Assembly: GCA_002281875.1 (NCBI GenBank)
Contig: NCHN01000023.1
Coordinates: 1 to 42,162 of the forward strand
DNA: 42,162 nucleotides
Direction: 5' to 3'
Origin: Sphingobacteriia bacterium 24-36-13
Lineage (GTDB): Bacteria; Bacteroidota; Bacteroidia; Chitinophagales; Chitinophagaceae
Below, one piece after another: positions 32,027 to 41,763 of the stretch; the first letter of the stretch is position 1; each line of letters opens with the position of its first letter. A model generated the notes under the pieces. It saw nothing but the letters and a program-made list of their open reading frames with translations, was not told the DNA's origin and did not search any database. The translations under genes and the position numbers were made by a program.

Positions 32027-32839
32027 ATGAAGCAAGCAAGCACTAGCATCGGCAGGTATTTAATTATCCTGCTGGTGCTTATTTCTGCCAATGCACAATC
32101 GCAATCATACAAAAAATTGGTATGGTCCGATGAGTTCAATGGCAAAGGGTTACCAGATAGTACCAAATGGGGGTATGATGTAGGAAGAGGCTGTCCACAA
32201 AACTGTGGATGGGGTAATAATGAATTACAATATTATACCAATAAGAATACCAGTAATGCCAGAGTAGAAAATGGCTTATTGGTGGTAGAAGCACATAAAG
32301 AAAATGTGGCCGATGCCAAATATTCCAGTGCTAGATTAGTTACCAAAAACAAAGGCGATTGGAAATATGGACGTATAGACGTAAAAGCCAAACTGCCCGC
32401 AGGACGCGGCATGTGGCCAGCAATTTGGATGTTGCCCACCGATTGGAAATACGGCGGATGGCCTCATAGCGGAGAGATAGATATCATGGAGAATGTAGGA
32501 TTTTGGCCAGACTCAGTATTAGGAACGGTGCATACCAATGCATACAATGGAATGAAGGGAACACAAAAAACTTTGGGAATGAATTTCAAAGATTTGTCAA
32601 CCGCATTTCATGAGTACAGTATTGAGTGGGATGCAGAAGAAATTCGATTCTATGTAGACAACAAGCAGTACAATTCTTTTAAGAATTCACATAAAAATGT
32701 AGACGAATGGCCCTTCGATCAACGCTTTCACTTACTCATTAATATAGCAGTAGGCGGAAACTGGGGTGGACAAAAGGGCGTAGACGACAGCATTTTTCCG
32801 CAAAAAATGTGGATTGATTATGTTCGCGTGTATCAATAG
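32027..32839 (+). CDS. Secreted GH16 family glucanase (laminarinase-like)
   Basis: The 270 residues comprise a signal peptide without a lipobox (residues 10-25, YLIILLVLISANAQSQ) and a single GH16 domain. The catalytic residues are Glu150, Asp152 and Glu155 in SGEIDIMEN. It shares the ELQYYTN and RVYQ ends with the preceding GH16, so the two are likely related by duplication, but it lacks the PKD domain and the lipid anchor and may act in the periplasm. It is last in the operon, and its end overlaps by 7 bases the end of the convergent Fic gene. Confidence 0.9.
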   Translation: MKQASTSIGRYLIILLVLISANAQSQSYKKLVWSDEFNGKGLPDSTKWGYDVGRGCPQNCGWGNNELQYYTNKNTSNARVENGLLVVEAHKENVADAKYSSARLVTKNKGDWKYGRIDVKAKLPAGRGMWPAIWMLPTDWKYGGWPHSGEIDIMENVGFWPDSVLGTVHTNAYNGMKGTQKTLGMNFKDLSTAFHEYSIEWDAEEIRFYVDNKQYNSFKNSHKNVDEWPFDQRFHLLINIAVGGNWGGQKGVDDSIFPQKMWIDYVRVYQ

Positions 32840-34305
32840 CGAAGCTTACCCTGACTAGGTAAATAAAACGCATGAGCAGAACGGAGGTAACGCTCCATTT
32901 CATTTTTAGTATCTCCCAACACAGTAGCACTGAACGCATAAATATTCAACATTGATTGAATGAATGCTGGAAAGTCTTGGTGTTGGGAGATTTTATTTAA
33001 AGCCAATTGATAAGCATCTGCATAAACAATCGGAATCATTATTTTAGTCAGGTTCTTCGCAGCCAGTTCTGCATTCATCATTAAGCGAGCCAAAGCACCA
33101 TTGCCCTCAGCAAATGGATTGACCTCAGAAAGCAAGAATAATAAGTAAATAGATTTAGCAAAAGGATCCTGCAATAAAGCATACCAATCAAACCCTTTGA
33201 TAAGGGTCCCTTCAATTAATTGCCAGGGCACCAATTCGGTAATGCCCGAAGGGTTATTGCTCTCTTTAAATTTGCCCGGATTTTTATTGGGCCTACTGGC
33301 CATTAAAAAAGCATGGCGCTTCTGCAATAGTTGAATAAACTCCTGCGCCGATTTAGGGCAGGTGGCCATTTCTTTTTTGTTGGAAGCAAGCTGGTAGGTA
33401 TGCAAGAGGTCTTCAGCATCTTCCCTACGACCCGAAAGCGGGGAAGCCGTTTCCACCATATGACGGGCTTCGGATAATTCAAATTCGTTGCCATCGATGT
33501 ACTGCGAAAAATAGCTTTCAAAAAAAGCAAAGTGCTGAAAAGTTGCTGTAGACAAATTTTGGTCGGGATATTGGGGGTAATTGTTGCCCGCTAAATGCCC
33601 GTATAATTCTTCCAATAATTTTACACTCGGTAGGTGGAAGGGTTTACCCAAGTAATTATTTAGCCTACTGGAGTTGTTGGCATTTGGTCCGAGTGCTTGT
33701 TGTTGAACTGCGTTAATTAACTTGGTCAAGACGGTTAATTCTTTTTCTAAACCGAGCATGGGAGCCAAAACCTTGGCTTGCTCTTTTAGGCGAATTAGGG
33801 CCGATTCTGAGTGAATTTGAAGCAAATCGGCCAATTTTTGACTGATTTCGGCCGTTTTTAGTGATTTTGCCCCTTCCTCTGATTTGCGAGAACTCGAGCA
33901 ATTTTCTAAAAAAGCACGGGCGTCTTGAGAGCGATAGAGTTGCTCAAAAAAGGGACGGTCATCTAAAATGGGGCCCCTGCCTTTGAGCAAATGAATGGTG
34001 AGGCCAGGCAATTCCACCATTTTGGTATACCCATGGGTAATAAAAATATGACCAGTAGGGGTGGGTTTGCATTCAAGCGCCGACCGATGACTGAGTACCG
34101 CACCAGGATATAAATGAGCAATGATTCTGAACCAGTTTCTTTTTACAATTGCATGCGTATTATCCGCAAGGTTGGTCGTGTAAACACGGGGGGCAATTTT
34201 ATAAGCCAAGCCCTTGCGAACCAGTTGTTGAATGCGCTTAGATTCGGAAGGATTCGCCGATCCAAAGAGGATTTCGGACAAAACAACCGGGTTAGAATTT
34301 TCCAT
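32833..34305 (-). CDS. AbiEi-like domain fused to a Fic domain with a degenerate catalytic motif
   Basis: The 490 residues start with an AbiEi antitoxin-type winged-helix region (about 1-110; VVLSEILFGSANPSESKRIQQLVRKG, IAPRVYT, AVLSHRSALE). A helical linker follows, then a Fic domain whose motif reads NPFAEGNGALAR at 396-407. In active Fic AMP-transferases this is HPFx(D/E)GNGRxxR, so the catalytic His is Asn396 and the first Arg is Ala404, while Arg407 and the GNG loop remain. The protein may therefore bind nucleotide without normal AMPylation. It is the first gene of a defence-like region, with an inverted repeat just upstream, and may autoregulate through the AbiEi domain. Confidence 0.82.
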   Translation of the reverse strand: MENSNPVVLSEILFGSANPSESKRIQQLVRKGLAYKIAPRVYTTNLADNTHAIVKRNWFRIIAHLYPGAVLSHRSALECKPTPTGHIFITHGYTKMVELPGLTIHLLKGRGPILDDRPFFEQLYRSQDARAFLENCSSSRKSEEGAKSLKTAEISQKLADLLQIHSESALIRLKEQAKVLAPMLGLEKELTVLTKLINAVQQQALGPNANNSSRLNNYLGKPFHLPSVKLLEELYGHLAGNNYPQYPDQNLSTATFQHFAFFESYFSQYIDGNEFELSEARHMVETASPLSGRREDAEDLLHTYQLASNKKEMATCPKSAQEFIQLLQKRHAFLMASRPNKNPGKFKESNNPSGITELVPWQLIEGTLIKGFDWYALLQDPFAKSIYLLFLLSEVNPFAEGNGALARLMMNAELAAKNLTKIMIPIVYADAYQLALNKISQHQDFPAFIQSMLNIYAFSATVLGDTKNEMERYLRSAHAFYLPSQGKLRY

Positions 34306-34415: not shown

Positions 34416-35159
34416 TTAGCGTGTTTCATCCGCCATATTGTCGAAATCGATACCTAAAACTTGCTTAAAGTAATAGTCTTCTAATTGAATTTTGGAATAA
34501 TCTTCTAGAGGAACCCAGGATTTGTCTTTTGAAAGAAATACCTCTATGGCTTCTTTTTGAGGGAAGATTTTATAATCCATTTTGGTGCCGTCGATGGTAA
34601 AATAGCCAGGATAAACAAAATCCATTTTGGCGTCTTGTGCGAAATCTTTGGTAATCAGCATTAAGAATTTACCCAAACTGAAGCGTTTATAGTCGGGATG
34701 ATAAAAGTGTAATACTGACATTAGAGATTTCAAGCCCGAATCAAAAAAACCAACTGCAATTAACTGGTCCCGATCAAGAATTTTGATCATGTAGGTATCA
34801 AAAACAGATGCTGGTGTATTTACTTCTGGAATGCAACCTTCGCATGATGGATAACCGTCAAAATTGATACTGGCTAAATACTGAGCGTAAAGCGCTTCAA
34901 TTTCTTCTGTGATTACGGCTTCCTGAATAACGAAGGAAAAGCCCGCACATTTTTTTCTAATTCGTTTGGTTGACGAGGTTTCTTTGGCTTTTTTTAGATT
35001 GAGCCTTAACCAAAAGACAGGATCATAGATTGCACTTTTACCATAATTGCCTACAAACACTTCGTTAGTAGTAAAAATATCATTGCCCATTCTGAAATAT
35101 CCATCAGCCAATGCATAGTCTAATGAATCGCCTTTGTAGATACCTAGTTCTAAACTCAT
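34416..35159 (-). CDS. Arginyl/leucyl-tRNA-protein transferase-like (Ate1/Bpt-family) GNAT-fold protein
   Basis: This is a 247-residue protein of the arginyltransferase C-terminal fold. LADGYFRMGNDIFTT (18-32) and DPVFWLRLNL are typical of bacterial members. AVGFFDSGLKSLMSVLHFYHPDYKRFSLGKFLMLITKDFA and YPGYFTIDGTKMDYKIFP are the ATE_C-like core. Members attach amino acids from aminoacyl-tRNA to protein N-termini and so create N-degrons. A CEGC pair (YPSCEGCIP) may replace the usual N-terminal Cys cluster. It is divergent from the AAA+ gene across an operator-like repeat. The substrate is unknown. Confidence 0.72.
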   Translation of the reverse strand: MSLELGIYKGDSLDYALADGYFRMGNDIFTTNEVFVGNYGKSAIYDPVFWLRLNLKKAKETSSTKRIRKKCAGFSFVIQEAVITEEIEALYAQYLASINFDGYPSCEGCIPEVNTPASVFDTYMIKILDRDQLIAVGFFDSGLKSLMSVLHFYHPDYKRFSLGKFLMLITKDFAQDAKMDFVYPGYFTIDGTKMDYKIFPQKEAIEVFLSKDKSWVPLEDYSKIQLEDYYFKQVLGIDFDNMADETR

Positions 35160-35181
35160 TCTATAAAATTAGCCAACTCCT

Positions 35182-35198
35182 ATGCAACCTATTTGCAT
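35182..35198. promoter_or_regulatory. Shared regulon operator, site 1 (Ate-like / AAA+ divergent region)
   Basis: ATGCAA-CCTAT-TTGCAT is a perfect 6-bp inverted repeat in the 148-base divergent region. Its 15-base core TGCAACCTATTTGCA is identical to the reverse complement of the core upstream of rmuC (40404-40424). It lies 23 bases from the start of the Ate-like gene. Confidence 0.6.
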
Positions 35199-35307
35199 TG
35201 TGGAAATAAATTTTCCTATGTGTATTTAACAAAGTCTTTTCAGTTGCAAAAGCAGACTGTAAATACATGGCAGAGGGCCTGATCAATTTTGCATCTCAAG
35301 CTTATAT

Positions 35308-36984
35308 ATGCCAGCCAGAAAATTTGACCCTACTGTTTTATTTCAATCTTGTCAGACTGTTTTTGTTAAAACCAAAGGTAAACTGATTCAACCCCCCAGT
35401 TTACTGGGGATTGAACAGGAGGTTAACCTGCTGTCTAGTTTTTTTGGGATTAATGAAATAGAGGTTTATATATTAATATATTTTGTGAACAAAGCACTTA
35501 ATGACGATACTGTTTATTGGGATAAAATAATTAACCATTTTGGCGATGATTTATCTCAGTTGCCCATCATGACTAAAGCTATTCAAGCGTTAATTAAAAA
35601 GGCAAGATTGCTGGAAAAACCTAAAAGCAGAAATGGTAAACCAGAATTCTTTATAATCGGAATAATGCACCCGAGAACGATTCAGGCACTTTTATCGGGC
35701 AATAAGCGTGATTTAAATGCAAAACCAGTTAAAAGTTTTGTTGAATTATTGGAACTCATTGACCAACAAATTCACTTAAAAGATTATGATACCATTAGTG
35801 GCGAAGCCATGCATAACGAAGTAGAATCTTTGTTCATTACAAATAAGCATTTTAGGGAAATACAATGGTTGAAAAAAATTGAACTCAGCACTGCAGAAAA
35901 ATTACTACTGTTTCAATTGGTATCAGAAGCATTTGAAAATATTGATTTATCTAATTTGCCAGAATTAATAAAGAAAGCAGCCAAGAACAAGGAGGAAGCT
36001 AATCAGCTTCAAAACTGTTTATTAACTGGTGCAAGTGCCTTGTTACTTCACGATTTAATTGAATTAGAACCTAATCAATTTATGCAATGCGAATTAGGCT
36101 CATTAAGTAAAAGAAGCTATGAACAGTTTTTTCATGAAGGCAATCTCTTGCGAAAAAAAACCTTTTATACACGGGTAAGTACTTTAATAGAGTCACAAAA
36201 AATTGAGGAAGAGCCATTGTTTTTTAATGCCGCTGTTTCTAAGCATATCCTGCCTCTGCAAAATGCATTATTGGAAGAAAATTATAATGCCATCTGTAAT
36301 AAAATCAAAGGAACGAATAAGGGTTTCACCCTGTTGTTTCATGGGGCACCAGGTACCGGAAAAACCGCATTGGCCAAACAACTTGCTTTTCAAACAGGCA
36401 GGAATCTATTAATGGTAGATGCAGCTTCTATCCGGAATATGTATGTAGGCGAATCTGAAAAGAATATCCGAAGAATCTTTAAAGAATATATACAGGCCAA
36501 ACAGCATTTTGAAATGCATCCCATATTATTGTTCAATGAGGCGGACGCATTAATAGCAAAGCGTATTTCTGTAAACAGCAGTGTTGACCAGATGAATAAT
36601 GCCATGCAGAATATATTGTTGCAATACTTAGAAGATTTTGAAGGGGTCTTTATTGCCACTACTAATTTGGCTTCCAATTTAGATGAAGCATTTAATAGAC
36701 GATTTTTATATAAGGTAGAGTTTAAAAATCCAGACAAAGAAGTGCGGCTACAGATCATGCAACATCATTATCCTAATATGCCTCTTAGCTATTTGCAACA
36801 ATTGAATGAACGCTATGCTTTATCTGGGGCGCAGTTTGTAAACATTAATAAGAAAATGTTGGTGGAGCAACTACTTTATCCTGATCTTGATCCGCTGGTT
36901 TTATTGGAACAACTTTGTGCGGAAGAGCGCATGGGTATGGGCAAACAAAAAGCTCAGCCCATTGGATTTATGAAGCGGGCTTAG
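35308..36984 (+). CDS. AAA+ ATPase of unknown function
   Basis: This 558-residue protein has an uncharacterised helical N-terminal half (residues 1-300) and a classical AAA+ module. Walker A is GAPGTGKT at 346-353 (Lys352) and Walker B is ILLFNEAD (Asn410, Glu411, Asp413), with Asn in place of the usual first Asp of the DE pair. The sensor and arginine-finger region is ATTNLASNLDEAFNRRFLYKVEF. It has no protease domain and no transmembrane segment. It is divergent from the Ate-like gene over a repeat shared with rmuC and the WYL gene, so it probably belongs to a co-regulated stress or defence set. Remodelling of a partner protein is the likeliest role. Confidence 0.8.
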   Translation: MPARKFDPTVLFQSCQTVFVKTKGKLIQPPSLLGIEQEVNLLSSFFGINEIEVYILIYFVNKALNDDTVYWDKIINHFGDDLSQLPIMTKAIQALIKKARLLEKPKSRNGKPEFFIIGIMHPRTIQALLSGNKRDLNAKPVKSFVELLELIDQQIHLKDYDTISGEAMHNEVESLFITNKHFREIQWLKKIELSTAEKLLLFQLVSEAFENIDLSNLPELIKKAAKNKEEANQLQNCLLTGASALLLHDLIELEPNQFMQCELGSLSKRSYEQFFHEGNLLRKKTFYTRVSTLIESQKIEEEPLFFNAAVSKHILPLQNALLEENYNAICNKIKGTNKGFTLLFHGAPGTGKTALAKQLAFQTGRNLLMVDAASIRNMYVGESEKNIRRIFKEYIQAKQHFEMHPILLFNEADALIAKRISVNSSVDQMNNAMQNILLQYLEDFEGVFIATTNLASNLDEAFNRRFLYKVEFKNPDKEVRLQIMQHHYPNMPLSYLQQLNERYALSGAQFVNINKKMLVEQLLYPDLDPLVLLEQLCAEERMGMGKQKAQPIGFMKRA

Positions 36985-37002
36985 TGATTAATAATTGTAA
37001 GC

Positions 37003-37437
37003 TTAATAAATAAGCATTTTAGGATCGATTATCGGAAGAAATGCATTGTGTAAAAAAGTGCCTTTAAAAGTTGAAAACATAACGCCTCTTGTTGTTGAGA
37101 TAGAAATAATATTTAGTGTTTCAACTAATTTAGGTGGCATATTAATTCTACCGTCCACTTCTATTTTTATTGCTTCTTCAAAATTGAATATTTCATAAAC
37201 ACAACTAACCGATATCGTACCAATTATTAATGATTGGTCATCATTTTTTATTTGAACGTTAACAATTACAAATACTAATTTTTTTGTAACATCTGCTTTG
37301 CTTTCAATATTTAAATTAAAATTGAAATTAGTTATAGGGTTTTTTGCATCAGGAGGCAGTATAATTGAGTTATTTAAAAGCTCAATTGCTTTTATTTGCA
37401 TTTCTATGTTTACCTCTTTTTGTTCAATATTATTCAT
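37003..37437 (-). CDS. SecB-like chaperone of a toxin-antitoxin-chaperone (TAC) module
   Basis: The 144 residues show the SecB-like pattern: alternating beta strands in a central sheet (NFNFNLNIESK, KLVFVIVNVQIKND, IIGTISVSCVYEI) and a C-terminal TTRGVMFSTFKGTFLHNAFLPIIDP, which corresponds to the RG...P.lp.inP end of SecB. In TAC systems such as Mycobacterium HigBA1-Rv1957, a SecB-like chaperone protects the antitoxin. The start codon overlaps the antitoxin stop by 4 bases (ATGA), so the two are translationally coupled. This is a solitary, non-housekeeping copy by context. The SecB fold is inferred from pattern only. Confidence 0.68.
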   Translation of the reverse strand: MNNIEQKEVNIEMQIKAIELLNNSIILPPDAKNPITNFNFNLNIESKADVTKKLVFVIVNVQIKNDDQSLIIGTISVSCVYEIFNFEEAIKIEVDGRINMPPKLVETLNIISISTTRGVMFSTFKGTFLHNAFLPIIDPKMLIY

Positions 37438-37898
37438 TTCGCTGTGTTGTAAAAGGATGAATATGCAATTTGATCTTCTTGAAAAGTTAAAGCAGAACCT
37501 CCTGCTTCATTACTCGTGTAAACATAAGGTGTACTCAAGTTAATTTCTGCAGCTTTTCCGCTTGACTTAACCGCAATTTTTCCTCTATAGATGACTTGTT
37601 CTTTCTTATTGGTAAATAATTCAGTGATATTAACTTTAAATGCTGAAGCAATTTCAATTAAGATATCAATGGTAAAGTTTTGTGTTCCGCTTAACCATTT
37701 GGTAATTTCAGAAGGGTTTTTACCAACCATTCCCGCAAATTGTGTCTTATTCCAACCCCGCTCTATCATTAAATCTTCAATTTTAGCGGCAATCTGCATT
37801 TTAGATTTTGTTTGCTCCATCTCTATTGGAGTTGTTTCTTCTAAAAGTTCATCAATCAATGGACTTTTATATTTCCTTGCTTTATTCGTCGTCTTCAT
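37434..37898 (-). CDS. XRE-family antitoxin (HigA-like) with C-terminal extension
   Basis: The 154-residue protein has an N-terminal extension (1-35), a helix-turn-helix (about 36-96; KTQFAGMVGKNPSEITKWLSGTQN) and a 58-residue tail (97-154) rich in aromatic and small residues (EINLSTPYVYTSN, QIAYSSFYN). In TAC systems the antitoxin tail is the chaperone-addiction region bound by the SecB-like protein, and this tail fits that role. It overlaps the toxin end by 17 bases and the chaperone start by 4, giving one operon. It should neutralise the toxin and repress the operon. Confidence 0.8.
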   Translation of the reverse strand: MKTTNKARKYKSPLIDELLEETTPIEMEQTKSKMQIAAKIEDLMIERGWNKTQFAGMVGKNPSEITKWLSGTQNFTIDILIEIASAFKVNITELFTNKKEQVIYRGKIAVKSSGKAAEINLSTPYVYTSNEAGGSALTFQEDQIAYSSFYNTAK

Positions 37899-38400
37899 TA
37901 TTGTAGTTTTTTAGATTTCCTAATAGTTCTGAGCCATTATCAGACCAATACAATTCTTCTTCATCTATTTGTTTTATTATGCTTGCAGCATAAGCCATTA
38001 TTTTTTCTACTTCCTCAGACAACTCTTTGCTTTCTTGCCATTTAACAACCGATTTGTCTTTGAATCCACCACCACCAAGTATAATTGCAACAGTCGAAAA
38101 CCTTATACAGTATAACCTTAAATTACTGTCTTCTTCATCGTAAAGTGCATAAACGTAGTTTCCATATTTTCTGACAAATTCATGATCCCCTTCCTGTTTA
38201 AAATAATTTTCTCTAGCTCCAGTATAATGCCCAATTTGTTTTAATCGATTATTTATCTGCTTTAATTCTCCTTTATATTGATTCTTATGACCTTCTATAA
38301 ACCTATCATATAGGGTTATTTCATCTCCTTCAGGAATAATTGAGTAAACTTTTGCTTCGCTGCCGCTAAATTGCTCAATTTCAACGATTTCGTAGTTCAC
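37882..38400 (-). CDS. RelE/HigB-like toxin of the TAC module
   Basis: This 172-residue protein has a RelE-superfamily core at about 50-130 (FVRKYGNYVYALYDEEDSNLRLYCIRFSTVAIILGGGGFKDK). RLYCIRF and ILGGGGFK match a common Bacteroidota HigB-type pattern, expected to act as a ribosome-dependent mRNA interferase. The start is GTG; no ATG lies in frame before the upstream stop, and the weak start fits toxin dosage control. The position, upstream of antitoxin and chaperone, matches known TAC gene order. An intact catalytic Arg/Lys cannot be confirmed without an alignment. Confidence 0.72.
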   Translation of the reverse strand: MNYEIVEIEQFSGSEAKVYSIIPEGDEITLYDRFIEGHKNQYKGELKQINNRLKQIGHYTGARENYFKQEGDHEFVRKYGNYVYALYDEEDSNLRLYCIRFSTVAIILGGGGFKDKSVVKWQESKELSEEVEKIMAYAASIIKQIDEEELYWSDNGSELLGNLKNYNNEDDE

Positions 38401-38475
38401 TTTACTTAAAAATAAAATTTAGACATTGAATGTACGTTTATTTTTTAAATAATGAGAAAACTGAGAATTTATTTT

Positions 38476-38485
38476 ACTTATAAGT
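38476..38485. promoter_or_regulatory. Palindrome upstream of the TAC operon
   Basis: ACTTATAAGT is a perfect 10-bp palindrome within AT-rich flanks (TTTT...GAAA), 76 bases before the toxin start codon. It could be the operator bound by the XRE antitoxin, as is usual in HigBA-type operons. Confidence 0.4.
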
Positions 38486-38504
38486 GAAATTAATGTTTTT
38501 TCTT

Positions 38505-39200
38505 TTAATCAAGTTGGCTCAAGGGATAAAATTTTTCCAAATCCATCAGGCTCGATTTTTTATAGAAAACCAGGTTATCTGGGGAGAGGATTAGCTCTTG
38601 GGCGATGGAGCTGATTTGGGTGGGCTCCGGGATGCCGTATTTTTCTTGCAGCATTTTTCGGATGGCAGGATTGAGCTCAATTAAATGTTGCAAGAGGTTT
38701 CTGTAAGAGATATTGCTTCCGATTATTGTATGAATACCTACTGCGGGTCCGTTTAAAATGATTCGAAACAATTGAATGCTTAAAGAAACGGGCTTGGCCT
38801 TAACTAAATTCCAGATATCATCAATTAAAAGCAATTTGTAGGGAAGCTTAACAGTGTTCCATAAATTAAGGGCATGGTATTTTTCAAAACTAGTTATGCG
38901 TTTTTGCTTCATGGTTCGTTCACGAAACTGCATTTCACGCAAGACGGCGTTCAGCAATTTTGCTCGTGTGGTATGGGTCCCGCTTTCGGGTTCGTCGGTT
39001 AAAAAATAGGACCATCCATTAGGGTCGGATGGTAAGTGGCGGCTGTTGGCGATTAAAAAGTGGCTATCGGAAATCTGCGAAAAATACCGCTGTATCTCAT
39101 TGACAAATGAATAAGAAACCATTAATAGTGGCACTTGAGCCAAGTCAATATACTGTGGTTCGTTACTACTATTTAAACCTATGGTTAATGGATATTTCAA
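38505..39200 (-). CDS. FtsK/SpoIIIE-like protein lacking the Walker A motif (degenerate translocase)
   Basis: The 231 residues align by eye with the FtsK motor: IGLNSSNEPQYIDLAQVPLLMV at the start, then EMQFRERTMKQKRITSFEKYH (EMERRY region), LPYKLLLIDDIWNLV (Walker B, Asp127-Asp128) and GPAVGIHTIIGSN (the GIHLIxATQRP region). Where FtsK has its P-loop, residues 29-36 read SYSFVNEI, with no GxxGxGKS. So it is probably unable to hydrolyse ATP on its own. It may be a remnant, or an adapted nucleotide- or DNA-binding partner. TAATTTTG on the minus strand at 39205-39212 is promoter-like but very close to the start. Confidence 0.72.
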   Translation of the reverse strand: MKYPLTIGLNSSNEPQYIDLAQVPLLMVSYSFVNEIQRYFSQISDSHFLIANSRHLPSDPNGWSYFLTDEPESGTHTTRAKLLNAVLREMQFRERTMKQKRITSFEKYHALNLWNTVKLPYKLLLIDDIWNLVKAKPVSLSIQLFRIILNGPAVGIHTIIGSNISYRNLLQHLIELNPAIRKMLQEKYGIPEPTQISSIAQELILSPDNLVFYKKSSLMDLEKFYPLSQLD

Positions 39201-39252
39201 GGGGCAAAATTATATGTAAATCAAAAGCAGTATTTTTATAAGAATAAAAAGC

Positions 39253-39301
39253 CAATAGCACAGGAAGTTATCCCCCCCGAAATACCCTTACCTGGCTATT
39301 G
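39253..39301. promoter_or_regulatory. Long inverted repeat between the FtsK-like and WYL genes
   Basis: CAATAGCACAGG (39253-39264) and CCTGGCTATTG (39291-39301) pair over 11 bp with one bulged base, around a 26-nt loop containing a run of seven C (39272-39278). It may be a structured leader or regulatory element. It lies in the 176-base divergent gap. Confidence 0.35.
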
Positions 39302-39323
39302 ACCATGTAAAACTAAAAAGGCA

Positions 39324-39344
39324 GTCTGCAACCTATTGGTTGAG
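39324..39344. promoter_or_regulatory. Shared regulon operator, site 2 (WYL regulator promoter)
   Basis: It begins with GTCTGCAACCTATT, identical over 14 bases to the reverse complement of the rmuC site (40404-40424). The other half (GGTTGAG) has diverged. It sits 32 bases before the WYL gene start, consistent with weak autoregulation. Confidence 0.55.
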
Positions 39345-39376
39345 TAAGCTTTATTTCAAGATTGTAAAAGGGGGAT

Positions 39377-40369
39377 ATGCCAAAAAACAAATCGGCTGTT
39401 TTACGTTATAGAATTATTGACGGATGTTTAACCAATAGCATGCACCCCTATCCTAGCTTGGAATCGATTCATCAAAAAGTGGAATCACAGTTAGAAAAAG
39501 CCATTTCCATTTCTATGTTGAACAAAGATTTGGCGGCTATGAAAGAAATTTATGGGGCGCCTATTGCCTATCATAAACAGAAGGGTGGGTATCATTATAG
39601 CGAACCCGATTTTTCCATTTCAGAATTTCCGTTAACCGAAGAAGAGCGGGAAGCATTGGATTTTTCCACTGCCCTATTACAGCAAATCCGCGGTACCCGA
39701 TTGTTTCAGCAGTTTGAGAATGCCATTAATAAAGTAATAGAAGGGTATAGAATTAGTAAAATAATCGGCGTATCACAGCGACAGTTTTTGCAAGTAGAAG
39801 AACCCGTTCGACCGCAAGACAGCCCTTACTTAGAACAATTGTTACAAAGCATTATTCACCAACAACCATTGGCCATTACTTATCAAGGATATGGCCGCGA
39901 GCCCAAGTTGCACCAGTTCTCTGCGCATTTATTAAAAGAGTATCGCAACTGTTGGTATGTGGTTGGCTATTCGGACAGGGGAAAGAATCTATTGATGTTT
40001 GCACTCGATCGAATTAAACATATAGCCAACAGTAATAGTGAATATATTAAGGTAGAGGGATTTGATCCCGACGAATTTTTCAAGTACTCATTTGGTATCA
40101 CACAGATACACGAAGCAAAGCCAGAAAAAGTAGTCTTACAGTTTACAGCGTATCAAGCACCTTTTGTTTTGAATCAACCCTTGCATCATTCTCAAAAAGT
40201 GTTAAAGCAAACTGATGCTGTTGTAGAAATAGAATATCATGTGTATATTACAACTGAATTAATTATGACCATCCTTTCTTACGGAAAAGAGGTTAAAGTA
40301 ATTCAACCCAAAACCTTAAAAGACCGAATCAAAGCTACTGTGCAAGAAATGGCTGCTCAGTACCAATAA
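39377..40369 (+). CDS. WYL-domain transcriptional regulator
   Basis: This 330-residue cytosolic regulator has an N-terminal winged helix (about 1-75; KQKGGYHYSE wing), a WYL domain (about 150-245; NCWYVVGYSDRGKNLLMFALDRI) and a C-terminal WCX-like domain (250-325). WYL domains bind ligands such as nucleic acids and often regulate defence or DNA-damage genes. A strong AAGGGGG Shine-Dalgarno-like run precedes the ATG. The half-conserved repeat upstream and the fuller copies near the AAA+ and rmuC genes suggest it controls them and itself. The direction of regulation, repression or activation, is unknown. Confidence 0.88.
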   Translation: MPKNKSAVLRYRIIDGCLTNSMHPYPSLESIHQKVESQLEKAISISMLNKDLAAMKEIYGAPIAYHKQKGGYHYSEPDFSISEFPLTEEEREALDFSTALLQQIRGTRLFQQFENAINKVIEGYRISKIIGVSQRQFLQVEEPVRPQDSPYLEQLLQSIIHQQPLAITYQGYGREPKLHQFSAHLLKEYRNCWYVVGYSDRGKNLLMFALDRIKHIANSNSEYIKVEGFDPDEFFKYSFGITQIHEAKPEKVVLQFTAYQAPFVLNQPLHHSQKVLKQTDAVVEIEYHVYITTELIMTILSYGKEVKVIQPKTLKDRIKATVQEMAAQYQ

Positions 40370-40403
40370 AAATCCCTCCCCAATTTGTACATATAATAAA
40401 CTA

Positions 40404-40424
40404 GTCTGCAAATAGGTTGCAGAC
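40404..40424. promoter_or_regulatory. Shared regulon operator, site 3 (rmuC promoter)
   Basis: GTCTGCAA and TTGCAGAC form a perfect 8-bp inverted repeat around ATAGG. The reverse-complement core TGCAACCTATTTGCA is also found at 35182-35198. The site lies just upstream of the TATATTTG promoter element (40433-40440), around the -33 region. Confidence 0.65.
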
Positions 40425-40432
40425 ACCGCAAT

Positions 40433-40440
40433 TATATTTG
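40433..40440 (+). promoter_or_regulatory. Bacteroidota-type -7 promoter element for rmuC
   Basis: TATATTTG is an exact TAnnTTTG match, 18 bases before the chosen rmuC ATG and directly after the inverted repeat. Confidence 0.55.
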
Positions 40441-40458
40441 TTTGTAAAAACAATTAAT

Positions 40459-41763
40459 ATGGAGCCGATGGTATTTATTATTGGAGGGGCAGTTGTCTTA
40501 TTAGTCATTTTAGCCACTTTATTTTATGCAAAAGCCAATACTGGCAAGCAGTTAACTGTATTAGAAGAACAGTTAAAGCAAAAAGAATTCCAGTTGCAAG
40601 AGCAATTGAATGCCCGTGTTTTATTACAAACAGAGAAAGAACAGTTGTTGAGCAGGGTTTCAAAAACAGAAGCCCAGTTAGAGAACAGCCAACAAGCATT
40701 GGTACAAGCCAAAGAAGCCAGTGATAAATTAAGCACTCAACTAAAATTAGAGTTTGCAGAAATAGCGCATAAAGTGATGCTCAACAATAGCGAGCAAATG
40801 CGTGCCAAGAGTGAGGAAAAAATTGGAGAGCTCCTTAATCCCCTTAAAACAGAACTGGGCGAATTCAAGAAAAAAGTGGACGATGTATATGTAGCGGAAG
40901 CCAAAGACCGACATGTATTAAAAGCTGAGATAGACCGACTCATTACCATGAGCCAACAAGTAAGCCAGGAAGCCAATAATTTAACATCGGCATTGAAAGG
41001 GAATAATAAAACGCAGGGCAATTGGGGAGAAATGCTGTTAGAAAGCATTCTAGAACACAGTGGACTCGTGAAGGGAAGAGAATTTGTGACCCAAGAATTT
41101 ATTAAAGACCCCGGTGGCAATATCATTAAAGATGAGGAAGGACGAGGCTTACAGCCCGATGTAATGGTGTATTATCCCGATCAACGTACGATTATTATAG
41201 ACTCCAAAGTTTCTTTGGTGCATTGGGAACAATATGTAAACAGTGAAGACGAAACAGAAAGAACCAAGGCATTGAATATGCACTTGGCATCTATTAAAAG
41301 TCATATTGATGGACTGAGCAGAAAGAACTATCCCAAATATGCGAAGGCATTGGATTATGTATTGCTCTTTGTTCCCATTGAGCCAGCTTTTTTAGAAGCA
41401 GTTAAAAAAGACACCAATCTTTGGAAGTACGCCTATGATAAACATATCATGTTGGTAAGCCCCACTAATTTATTGGCCGTATTAAAAATTATTGCAGATC
41501 TCTGGACTGTAGAACTTCGCAACCAAAATGCTTTAGAGATTGCCGAGAAAGCGGGGATGATGTATGATAAGTTTGTATTGTATTTAGAAAGCATGGAATC
41601 GGTGGGCAATGGAATTAAAAATGCACAGACTGCTTATGATAAAGCCATGGGGCAATTGAGTACAGGCCGAGGCAATTTAGTGGGTCGTGCAGAAGAGTTA
41701 AAGAAAATGGGTGCTGCAGCACAGAAACAAATTCCGGATAAAATATTGTTTGAATTGAAATAG
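40459..41763 (+). CDS. rmuC: RmuC-family DNA recombination protein
   Basis: This 434-residue protein has an N-terminal membrane anchor (VFIIGGAVVLLVILATLFY), a long coiled coil (about 30-115) and the RmuC domain (about 125-420). Family signatures visible are GNNKTQGNWGEMLLESILEHSGL, QPDVMVYYPDQRTIIIDSKVSL, LFVPIEPAFLEA and VSPTNLLAVLKIIADLW. RmuC proteins are predicted PD-(D/E)xK nucleases that limit DNA rearrangements; the IIIDSKVS patch is the nuclease-type motif. I used ATG 40459; a start at 40417 would overlap the repeat and promoter. It shares the operator-like repeat with the AAA+ and WYL genes, suggesting co-regulation. Confidence 0.92.
   Translation: MEPMVFIIGGAVVLLVILATLFYAKANTGKQLTVLEEQLKQKEFQLQEQLNARVLLQTEKEQLLSRVSKTEAQLENSQQALVQAKEASDKLSTQLKLEFAEIAHKVMLNNSEQMRAKSEEKIGELLNPLKTELGEFKKKVDDVYVAEAKDRHVLKAEIDRLITMSQQVSQEANNLTSALKGNNKTQGNWGEMLLESILEHSGLVKGREFVTQEFIKDPGGNIIKDEEGRGLQPDVMVYYPDQRTIIIDSKVSLVHWEQYVNSEDETERTKALNMHLASIKSHIDGLSRKNYPKYAKALDYVLLFVPIEPAFLEAVKKDTNLWKYAYDKHIMLVSPTNLLAVLKIIADLWTVELRNQNALEIAEKAGMMYDKFVLYLESMESVGNGIKNAQTAYDKAMGQLSTGRGNLVGRAEELKKMGAAAQKQIPDKILFELK

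Follow-up and report, generated by a model that had tools for sequence, protein, structure and literature searches.

Results

Four copies of an inverted-repeat box in a WYL locus

The stretch of DNA analysed here, 42,162 nucleotides of contig NCHN01000023.1 from Sphingobacteriia bacterium 24-36-13 (hereafter the window), encodes a WYL-domain regulator (39377-40369, plus strand; Pfam WYL and WCX domains) that is the proposed binder of an inverted-repeat box found in the promoters around it. The genes preceded by this box are an Ate-like gene with an ATE_C domain (34416-35159, minus strand; PF04377, E 5e-18), a gene for an AAA+ ATPase resembling the defence ATPase IetA (35308-36984, plus strand; PF00004; PADLOC IetA, E 4.5e-26), rmuC (40459-41763, plus strand; PF02646, E 1e-99), and a conserved hairpin with the gene D231 behind it. 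All matches of the Ate-like protein to the NCBIfam arginyltransferase models were under their cut-offs, and the AAA+ protein scored 82 bits against the NCBIfam model of the IetA-type ATPase, far short of its cut-off of 510.

The initial annotation noted three intergenic sites, and their positions were confirmed at 35182-35198 (ATGCAACCTATTTGCAT), 40404-40424 (GTCTGCAAATAGGTTGCAGAC, with perfect 8-bp arms and a 5-nt spacer) and 39324-39344 (GTCTGCAACCTATTGGTTGAG). The first two have a 15-base core in common and the third shares 14 bases with the rmuC site. The proposal that these sites are a shared, operator-like box placed at promoters was borne out. Each of the three, when read on the strand AATAGGTTGCA, is followed by exactly 11 bases and then by TAnnTTTR, which is the Bacteroidota -7 box or one letter off it. 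Box 1 (35183-35197, minus strand; TGCAAATAGGTTGCA) and the -7 element TAATTTTA at 35164-35171 together make up the Ate-like promoter; if the -7 box is placed at -12 to -5, as in Flavobacterium psychrophilum (available sections of PMC9723704), the predicted transcription start at 35159 is the A of the Ate-like ATG. Box 3 (40407-40421, plus strand; also TGCAAATAGGTTGCA, with 8-bp perfect arms when its flanks are included) lies in the rmuC promoter, with the -7 element TATATTTG at 40433-40440 and a predicted transcription start at 40445. Box 2 (39327-39341, minus strand) is a half-diverged dyad, AACCAATAGGTTGCA, and stands at the same distance from its -7-like element (TAGTTTTA, 39308-39315) as the other noted sites, but is directed away from the WYL gene.

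A fourth unit, overlooked in the initial annotation, precedes the AAA+ gene at 35258-35291 on the plus strand. It consists of a weaker box 4 (35258-35272, TGTAAATACATGGCA) and the -7-like element CAATTTTG at 35284-35291, with a predicted transcription start at 35296, and was aligned by eye with the orthologous boxes of two relatives, G591 and G448 (relatives are labelled G for genomes and L for loci). In both relatives a separate box precedes the AAA+ gene, and its layout, box-N11-CAAyTTTGCATCTCAAGC, is also that of the window. For ranking sites in the window, a matrix was built from 15 genus boxes, with box 4 excluded and the orthologous boxes of G448 and G591 included. Box 4 came fourth with 18.5 bits, behind 33.6, 33.1 and 31.8 bits, and the next best site had 11.0 bits. 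The boxes are assigned to the Ate-like gene (box 1), the AAA+ gene (box 4), the hairpin and the EccC-like D231 (box 2) and rmuC (box 3). A regulon comprising the Ate-like gene, the AAA+ gene and rmuC, as first proposed, is supported, with two changes of detail: the site at 35182 does not link the AAA+ gene, as it is directed at the Ate-like gene and the AAA+ gene has a box of its own, and the site at 39324 is not the promoter of the WYL gene, being directed at the hairpin RNA and the gene at 38505-39200. A promoter from site 2 into the WYL gene is ruled out by the conserved RNA behind the box on the opposite strand and by the orientation of boxes elsewhere.

The box was rare in the genome from which the window derives (3,069,191 bases, 3.07-Mb). 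The exact 15-mer TGCAAATAGGTTGCA occurred twice, both times at this locus, with 11 further places at two mismatches (the reversed control gave 6 places at up to two mismatches). The composite pattern AATAGGTTGCA-N11-TAnnTTT had three mismatch-free matches, which are the three noted sites, none with one mismatch and seven with two; at up to three mismatches the pattern found 128 places and its control 96. Units with no or one mismatch are thus confined to this locus genome-wide, which bears on membership of a LexA regulon. In the window alone, six matches of the 15-mer at up to three mismatches were unremarkable against an expectation of 3.19, as 12 of 100 shuffles reached six. A chance repeat is ruled out by the rarity of both the 15-mer and the composite in the genome and by the lack of control matches in the order genomes described below. 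The core is not scattered over the genome; nor is it peculiar to this locus, since a scan of 84,980 genomes found it again across Bacteroidota. The repeated sequence is real, the finding is larger than first described, and the first interpretation is mostly right, its overall grade being partly supported.

The dyad lies at a fixed distance from the -7 element

The spacing was assessed in a sample chosen without any requirement for a -7 element, namely all occurrences of the 15-mer TGCAAATAGRTTGCA in 198 genomes of the order, the window's genome included. There were 18 sites in 10 of the 198 genomes, and none was seen for the reversed control. TAnnTTTG, with at least five of its six letters, stood at offset +11 in 12 of the 18 sites (10 of 16 without the two of the window), at any other offset in no more than one of the 18, and at +11 on the opposite side in one. 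The box spans -38 to -24, and its centre ATAGR, which is conserved and non-palindromic, lies at about -33 to -29, roughly the position of the -33 element, between the arms TGCAA and TTGCA. Pairs flanking the searched core were compared in 70 exact units. The first of them was complementary in 58 (35.8 in shuffles) and the third outer pair in 35 (22.4 in shuffles), with the second and fifth near expectation; complementarity of outer pairs above that of shuffles indicates that the dyad is under selection. The arms vary between genomes yet stay paired, for example as GCCCGTAA/TTACGGGC in G050. Sequence, spacing, orientation, conservation and co-occurrence of the box are direct observations.

Boxes with other arms (GCCCGTAA/TTACGGGC and AACCGCAT/ATGCGTTT) were also seen at two loci with distant WYL relatives (38% identity), L068 and L069, where the genes behind them are small (about 120-126 aa) and resemble each other by eye. 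The arms of the box seem to change together with the WYL protein.

Box 2 precedes a conserved hairpin

Behind box 2, at 39252-39303 on the minus strand, lies a conserved hairpin (fold z -3.7) that contains seven consecutive G and is a candidate for either a separate small RNA or a leader of D231. A covariance model, R1, was built from four genomes and searched against 101 genomes of the genus; its match in the window (E 1e-17, the window being one of the four training sequences) starts at 39303, which is the predicted transcription start of box 2. Matches at E <1e-10 were found in seven of the 101 genomes, the four training genomes and the new G591, G448 and G600, and in all seven, the window included, the hairpin lies between the WYL gene and a divergent gene with a box in front. 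An additional match in G013 (E 0.004) has no WYL gene beside it. Five of the 19 hairpin pairs had changed on both sides, a number reached by none of 500 shuffles, although the alignment was fitted to the structure and this comparison therefore leans favourable. An Rfam scan of 38900-39500 gave no match. R1 had no match in L180, which is from a close relative with 95% identical WYL DNA, and in G036 a similar hairpin was seen by eye but gave no R1 match at E up to 1.

D231 (38505-39200, minus strand), behind the hairpin, has weak similarity to EccC/EssC type VII secretion ATPases (E 3e-4, under the cut-off) and no Pfam match; homologues are present in G405, G448, G591, G600 and G013.

Conservation of the boxes in related loci

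The gene order of the window (Fic, Ate-like, AAA+, a toxin-antitoxin-chaperone trio, D231, RNA, WYL, rmuC) is identical in G448. The trio is absent from G591, and both the trio and the AAA+ gene are absent from G405; the 15.5 kb fetched from G017 lack D231 as well as these, and the 8 kb of L180 contain Fic, Ate-like, WYL and rmuC genes. The expectation that the box would stand upstream of the orthologues held for rmuC, with a box in six of the seven genus-level loci that have rmuC beside the WYL gene (window, G405, G017, G591, G448 and L180), and for the AAA+ gene, with its own box in three of three loci. It did not hold generally for the Ate-like gene, which stands directly behind a box in three of eight loci (window, G405 with one mismatch, and L180). 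In G013 and G600 the box is found before a gene that precedes the Ate-like gene on the same strand; its products are 71% identical between the two genomes, and at 24% (E 5e-5 and 2e-7) the AAA+ protein is a distant relative of both. The notion that the AAA+ gene is a mere insertion unrelated to the box, suggested by G405, G017 and L180, is ruled out by G448 and G591, where it occupies the same place with its own box.

RecB/RecC-like genes, named by eye, lie nearby in G013 and G600. Distant AAA+ relatives (31% and 25%) were found near distant WYL proteins in G015 and G009 (L073 and L074), with no clear box seen; from these two loci, AAA+ and WYL genes may be linked more widely.

The box occurs across Bacteroidota together with WYL genes

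An exact unit, defined by 20 fixed bases and one R and expected by our own arithmetic to have about 0.2 chance matches, was found in 56 stretches among the 84,980 genomes. From their titles, 54 of these come from what we take to be Bacteroidota groups, and the other two are from one contig titled Chlorobiota. Flavihumibacter profundi KCTC 62290 is an example of a strain that carries the box. A WYL open reading frame was present in 28 of the 56 stretches (418 kb in total), and in 26 of the 28 nearest pairs of box and WYL gene the promoter was directed away from the WYL gene, the two directed into it being L169 and L193. As a control, 38 near-match loci from the window's genome (109 kb) were inspected, and no WYL gene was present in any of them.

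Within the family of the window, 384 genomes were sampled, of which 141 had matches at E 1e-70 to a WYL profile, A6. The 15-mer with the -7 pattern at up to two mismatches occurred in 60 of the 384, with 97 places listed as opposed to 10 for the reversed control; 19 of the 97 lie within 1 kb of a WYL gene, where a rough uniform estimate expects about 0.07, and 22 of the 69 fetched loci with such sites contain one. Where the box was exact, all nine of the nine genomes had the WYL subfamily (Fisher p 1e-4); at up to one mismatch 18 of 21 had it (p 3e-6), and at up to two, 38 of 60 (p 8e-6). Among 12 chosen box genomes, a WYL protein was found at E 1e-20 in 11. The core therefore tracks WYL orthologues, one of the checks first proposed, and the WYL protein is supported as the likely binder.

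Repair, RNA-repair and defence genes lie behind the boxes

Downstream genes were collected as those of at least 80 aa within 120 bases of a box with up to two mismatches, a set in which some sites fall inside longer reading frames. The 109 genes formed 64 clusters (102 were distinct by their last 60 residues), the largest being rmuC with 14 entries, two of which are one gene under two names. A Pfam scan of 20 representatives of the clusters left six without a match and found RtcB, RlaP, TROVE/Ro60, N6 DNA methylase, a RecD-like helicase, UvrD with a PD-(D/E)XK nuclease and Cas1, with further matches to AAA_21, DUF2130, DUF2604, DUF488 and DuOB. A HAD hydrolase and an ankyrin protein, also downstream, are by themselves off the theme of repair and defence. 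In the family of the window, the WYL box is found at four rtcB promoters, with two mismatches in every case (Pfam was run on one of these genes). No recA, lexA or Y-family polymerase was recognised by eye among the downstream genes, and no search aimed at them was made.

On the contig titled Chlorobiota, boxes precede cas1 near WYL genes (L189:3096 and L195), perhaps a WYL-controlled CRISPR locus. A family of proteins of about 140 aa stands directly behind exact boxes in one genus (L077, L079 and L145); one scanned member had no Pfam match.

Discussion

A DriD/PafBC-like activator as the probable reader of the box

The nearest relatives of the WYL protein in the PDB are the DriD entries 7TZV, 8TP8 and 9PFQ, followed by PafB. 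The E values of about 6e-15 for DriD, 7e-13 for PafB, 3e-4 for BrxR and 8e-3 for CapW, which is a WYL repressor of defence islands, place it nearer to DriD/PafBC than to BrxR/CapW. No Pfam helix-turn-helix model matched its N-terminus, and the alignment of the profile with PafB runs from about position 45. The box is probably the operator of a locus-encoded DriD/PafBC-like WYL activator that controls a regulon for nucleic-acid damage and defence; binding, dimerisation, activation, ligand and response are inferred from sequence. A WYL dimer would bind the arms TGCAA and TTGCA on both sides of the ATAGR centre and, lying over the -33 region, would recruit RNA polymerase to weak promoters in the manner of DriD, with a nucleic-acid signal such as single-stranded DNA (ssDNA) bound by the WYL domain as the likely trigger. 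In the window the targets switched on would be the Ate-like gene, the AAA+ gene, the seven-G hairpin RNA (with D231) and rmuC, and elsewhere in Bacteroidota the same box would serve RNA-repair, DNA-repair, restriction and CRISPR genes.

Several observations weigh against this explanation. No box was found before rmuC of G036 or directly upstream of the Ate-like genes of G017, G591 and G448, and the spacing from the rmuC box to the -7 element, which is 11 in five loci, is 12 in G448. The lack of a box upstream of several Ate-like orthologues makes the explanation slightly less likely, though still probable. Six of the 18 sites in the order genomes failed the -7 test at +11, two of them with four of the six letters and four with one or two; the latter four may be chance occurrences, and one of them (L224) stands immediately before a WYL gene. 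No WYL gene lies inside the fetched stretch in 28 of the 56 exact-unit loci, and among the family genomes with a box, no strong WYL protein was found in 22 of the 60 at up to two mismatches or in three of the 21 at up to one; some of the box sites in genomes without WYL are probably chance. The 38 control loci without a WYL gene were, at up to 3 kb, shorter than the tested loci of up to 8 kb. The WYL hidden Markov model (HMM; 18 sequences, some from box loci) and profile A6 (40 sequences, partly from box loci) make the co-occurrence tests partly circular, and the Fisher tests of co-occurrence in the family ignore the relatedness of the genomes. Finally, G311 has three TGCAAATARATTGCA sites and no WYL protein at E 1e-20; the centre of these sites (L152 and L135) is ATAGA or ATAAA, and they may belong to a different regulator whose box is related.

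The WYL protein could instead be a repressor of the BrxR/CapW type. It would then occupy the box and obstruct the -33 region until a ligand freed it following damage or infection. The overlap of box and promoter would suit such a protein, and BrxR itself acts as a repressor in a defence island, where the inverted repeats that it binds have a 5-bp spacer (available text of PMC9122601). A repressor would not need one exact distance and orientation to the -7 box, yet 12 of the 18 sites keep both; among solved structures, DriD and PafB are the closest relatives and the matches to BrxR and CapW are far weaker; and boxes are directed away from the WYL gene in 26 of 28 pairs, whereas the first box of BrxR, in the part of PMC9122601 considered, follows its own promoter and precedes its gene. 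An activator is therefore favoured by the fixed spacing, the orientation and the kinship with DriD and PafB, and we regard repression as unlikely.

It is very unlikely that the box is read by some other protein, such as an SOS repressor of the LexA type or an XRE protein encoded in these loci. The RecD-like, UvrD-nuclease and rmuC genes do resemble the content of a damage response, and some box genomes are without a strong WYL protein, but boxes adjoin WYL genes far above chance, the WYL subfamily is present in all nine exact-box genomes of the family, and the typical SOS genes recA, lexA and Y-family polymerase were not recognised by eye downstream, with no search aimed at them. The fixed spacing to the -7 element would also be expected if the whole unit were the promoter class of an alternative sigma factor, with the box as its -35 element. 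This is the least probable of the alternatives and likewise very unlikely, as TAnnTTTG is the ordinary sigma-A -7 element (available sections of PMC9723704), the flanks of the dyad co-vary, and the arms differ between genomes but remain paired, as in G050.

Comparison with known systems and implications

The probable WYL activator is similar to DriD in being closest to it among solved sequences, in having a dyad over the -35/-33 region at one distance from the -10/-7 element, and in having boxes that mostly point away from its own gene; the sites of DriD are, in the available text of PMC12340889, pseudo-palindromic, overlap the -35 element at a constant distance from -10 and have repair genes among their targets, and DriD serves a divergent operon and not driD itself. 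Unlike DriD, the present system has another box and the -7 promoter type of Bacteroidota, its targets add RNA-repair and defence genes, the AAA+ gene, the Ate-like gene and a hairpin RNA, and its ligand is a presumed one. PafBC of mycobacteria is a WYL activator that acts near -35 with the housekeeping sigma factor in sigma adaptation and is triggered by ssDNA; it is a heterodimer with a -26 motif (both from the accessible part of PMC11804915), whereas the single gene and dyad site of the present system point to a homodimer. The likeness to BrxR lies in a WYL protein in defence-like loci and in inverted repeats with a 5-bp spacer, and the differences in the weaker sequence kinship and the repressor function of BrxR, for which no fixed link to -10 was seen in the part of PMC9122601 considered. 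RtcR similarly places RtcB under nucleic-acid-sensing control (sections available of PMC4012209 and PMC7790460) but is a CARF-containing, sigma-54-type regulator of rtcBA, unlike the WYL box carried by the rtcB promoters here.

We advance tentatively, at somewhat short of even odds, the broader view that Bacteroidota hold a phylum-wide, LexA-independent damage and defence regulon run by one WYL subfamily, in which a dyad box combined with the sigma-A -7 element couples DNA repair (RmuC, RecD-like, UvrD-nuclease), RNA repair (RtcB, RlaP, Ro60), restriction, CRISPR and, within a single genus, a dedicated hairpin RNA whose transcription starts at +1. The hairpin RNA may be an output of the regulon or a feedback on a nucleic-acid-binding WYL protein. 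A WYL regulon in Bacteroidota was not described in any of the open-paper matches listed, and to our knowledge none has been described. When the letter strings of the box were looked for in open papers, the matches listed looked, to judge by title, like primer or sequence coincidences, and the longer strings had no occurrences there. With a box recognisable in the DNA sequence, one could predict the repair, RNA-repair and defence genes that are switched on together in a Bacteroidota species. The box would also make what WYL proteins sense testable in a major phylum of gut, rumen and soil, and the finding offers a new hairpin RNA for study.

Other genes of the locus

Inside the locus lies a toxin-antitoxin-chaperone-like operon of three genes (37003-38400, minus strand) that match PADLOC PDC-M64 side by side. 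No box of its own was recognised for this trio, which occupies the same place in G448. A Fic-domain protein is encoded beside the Ate-like gene (32833-34305 of the window), and the Fic gene keeps this position next to the Ate-like gene in G405, G448, G591 and L180.

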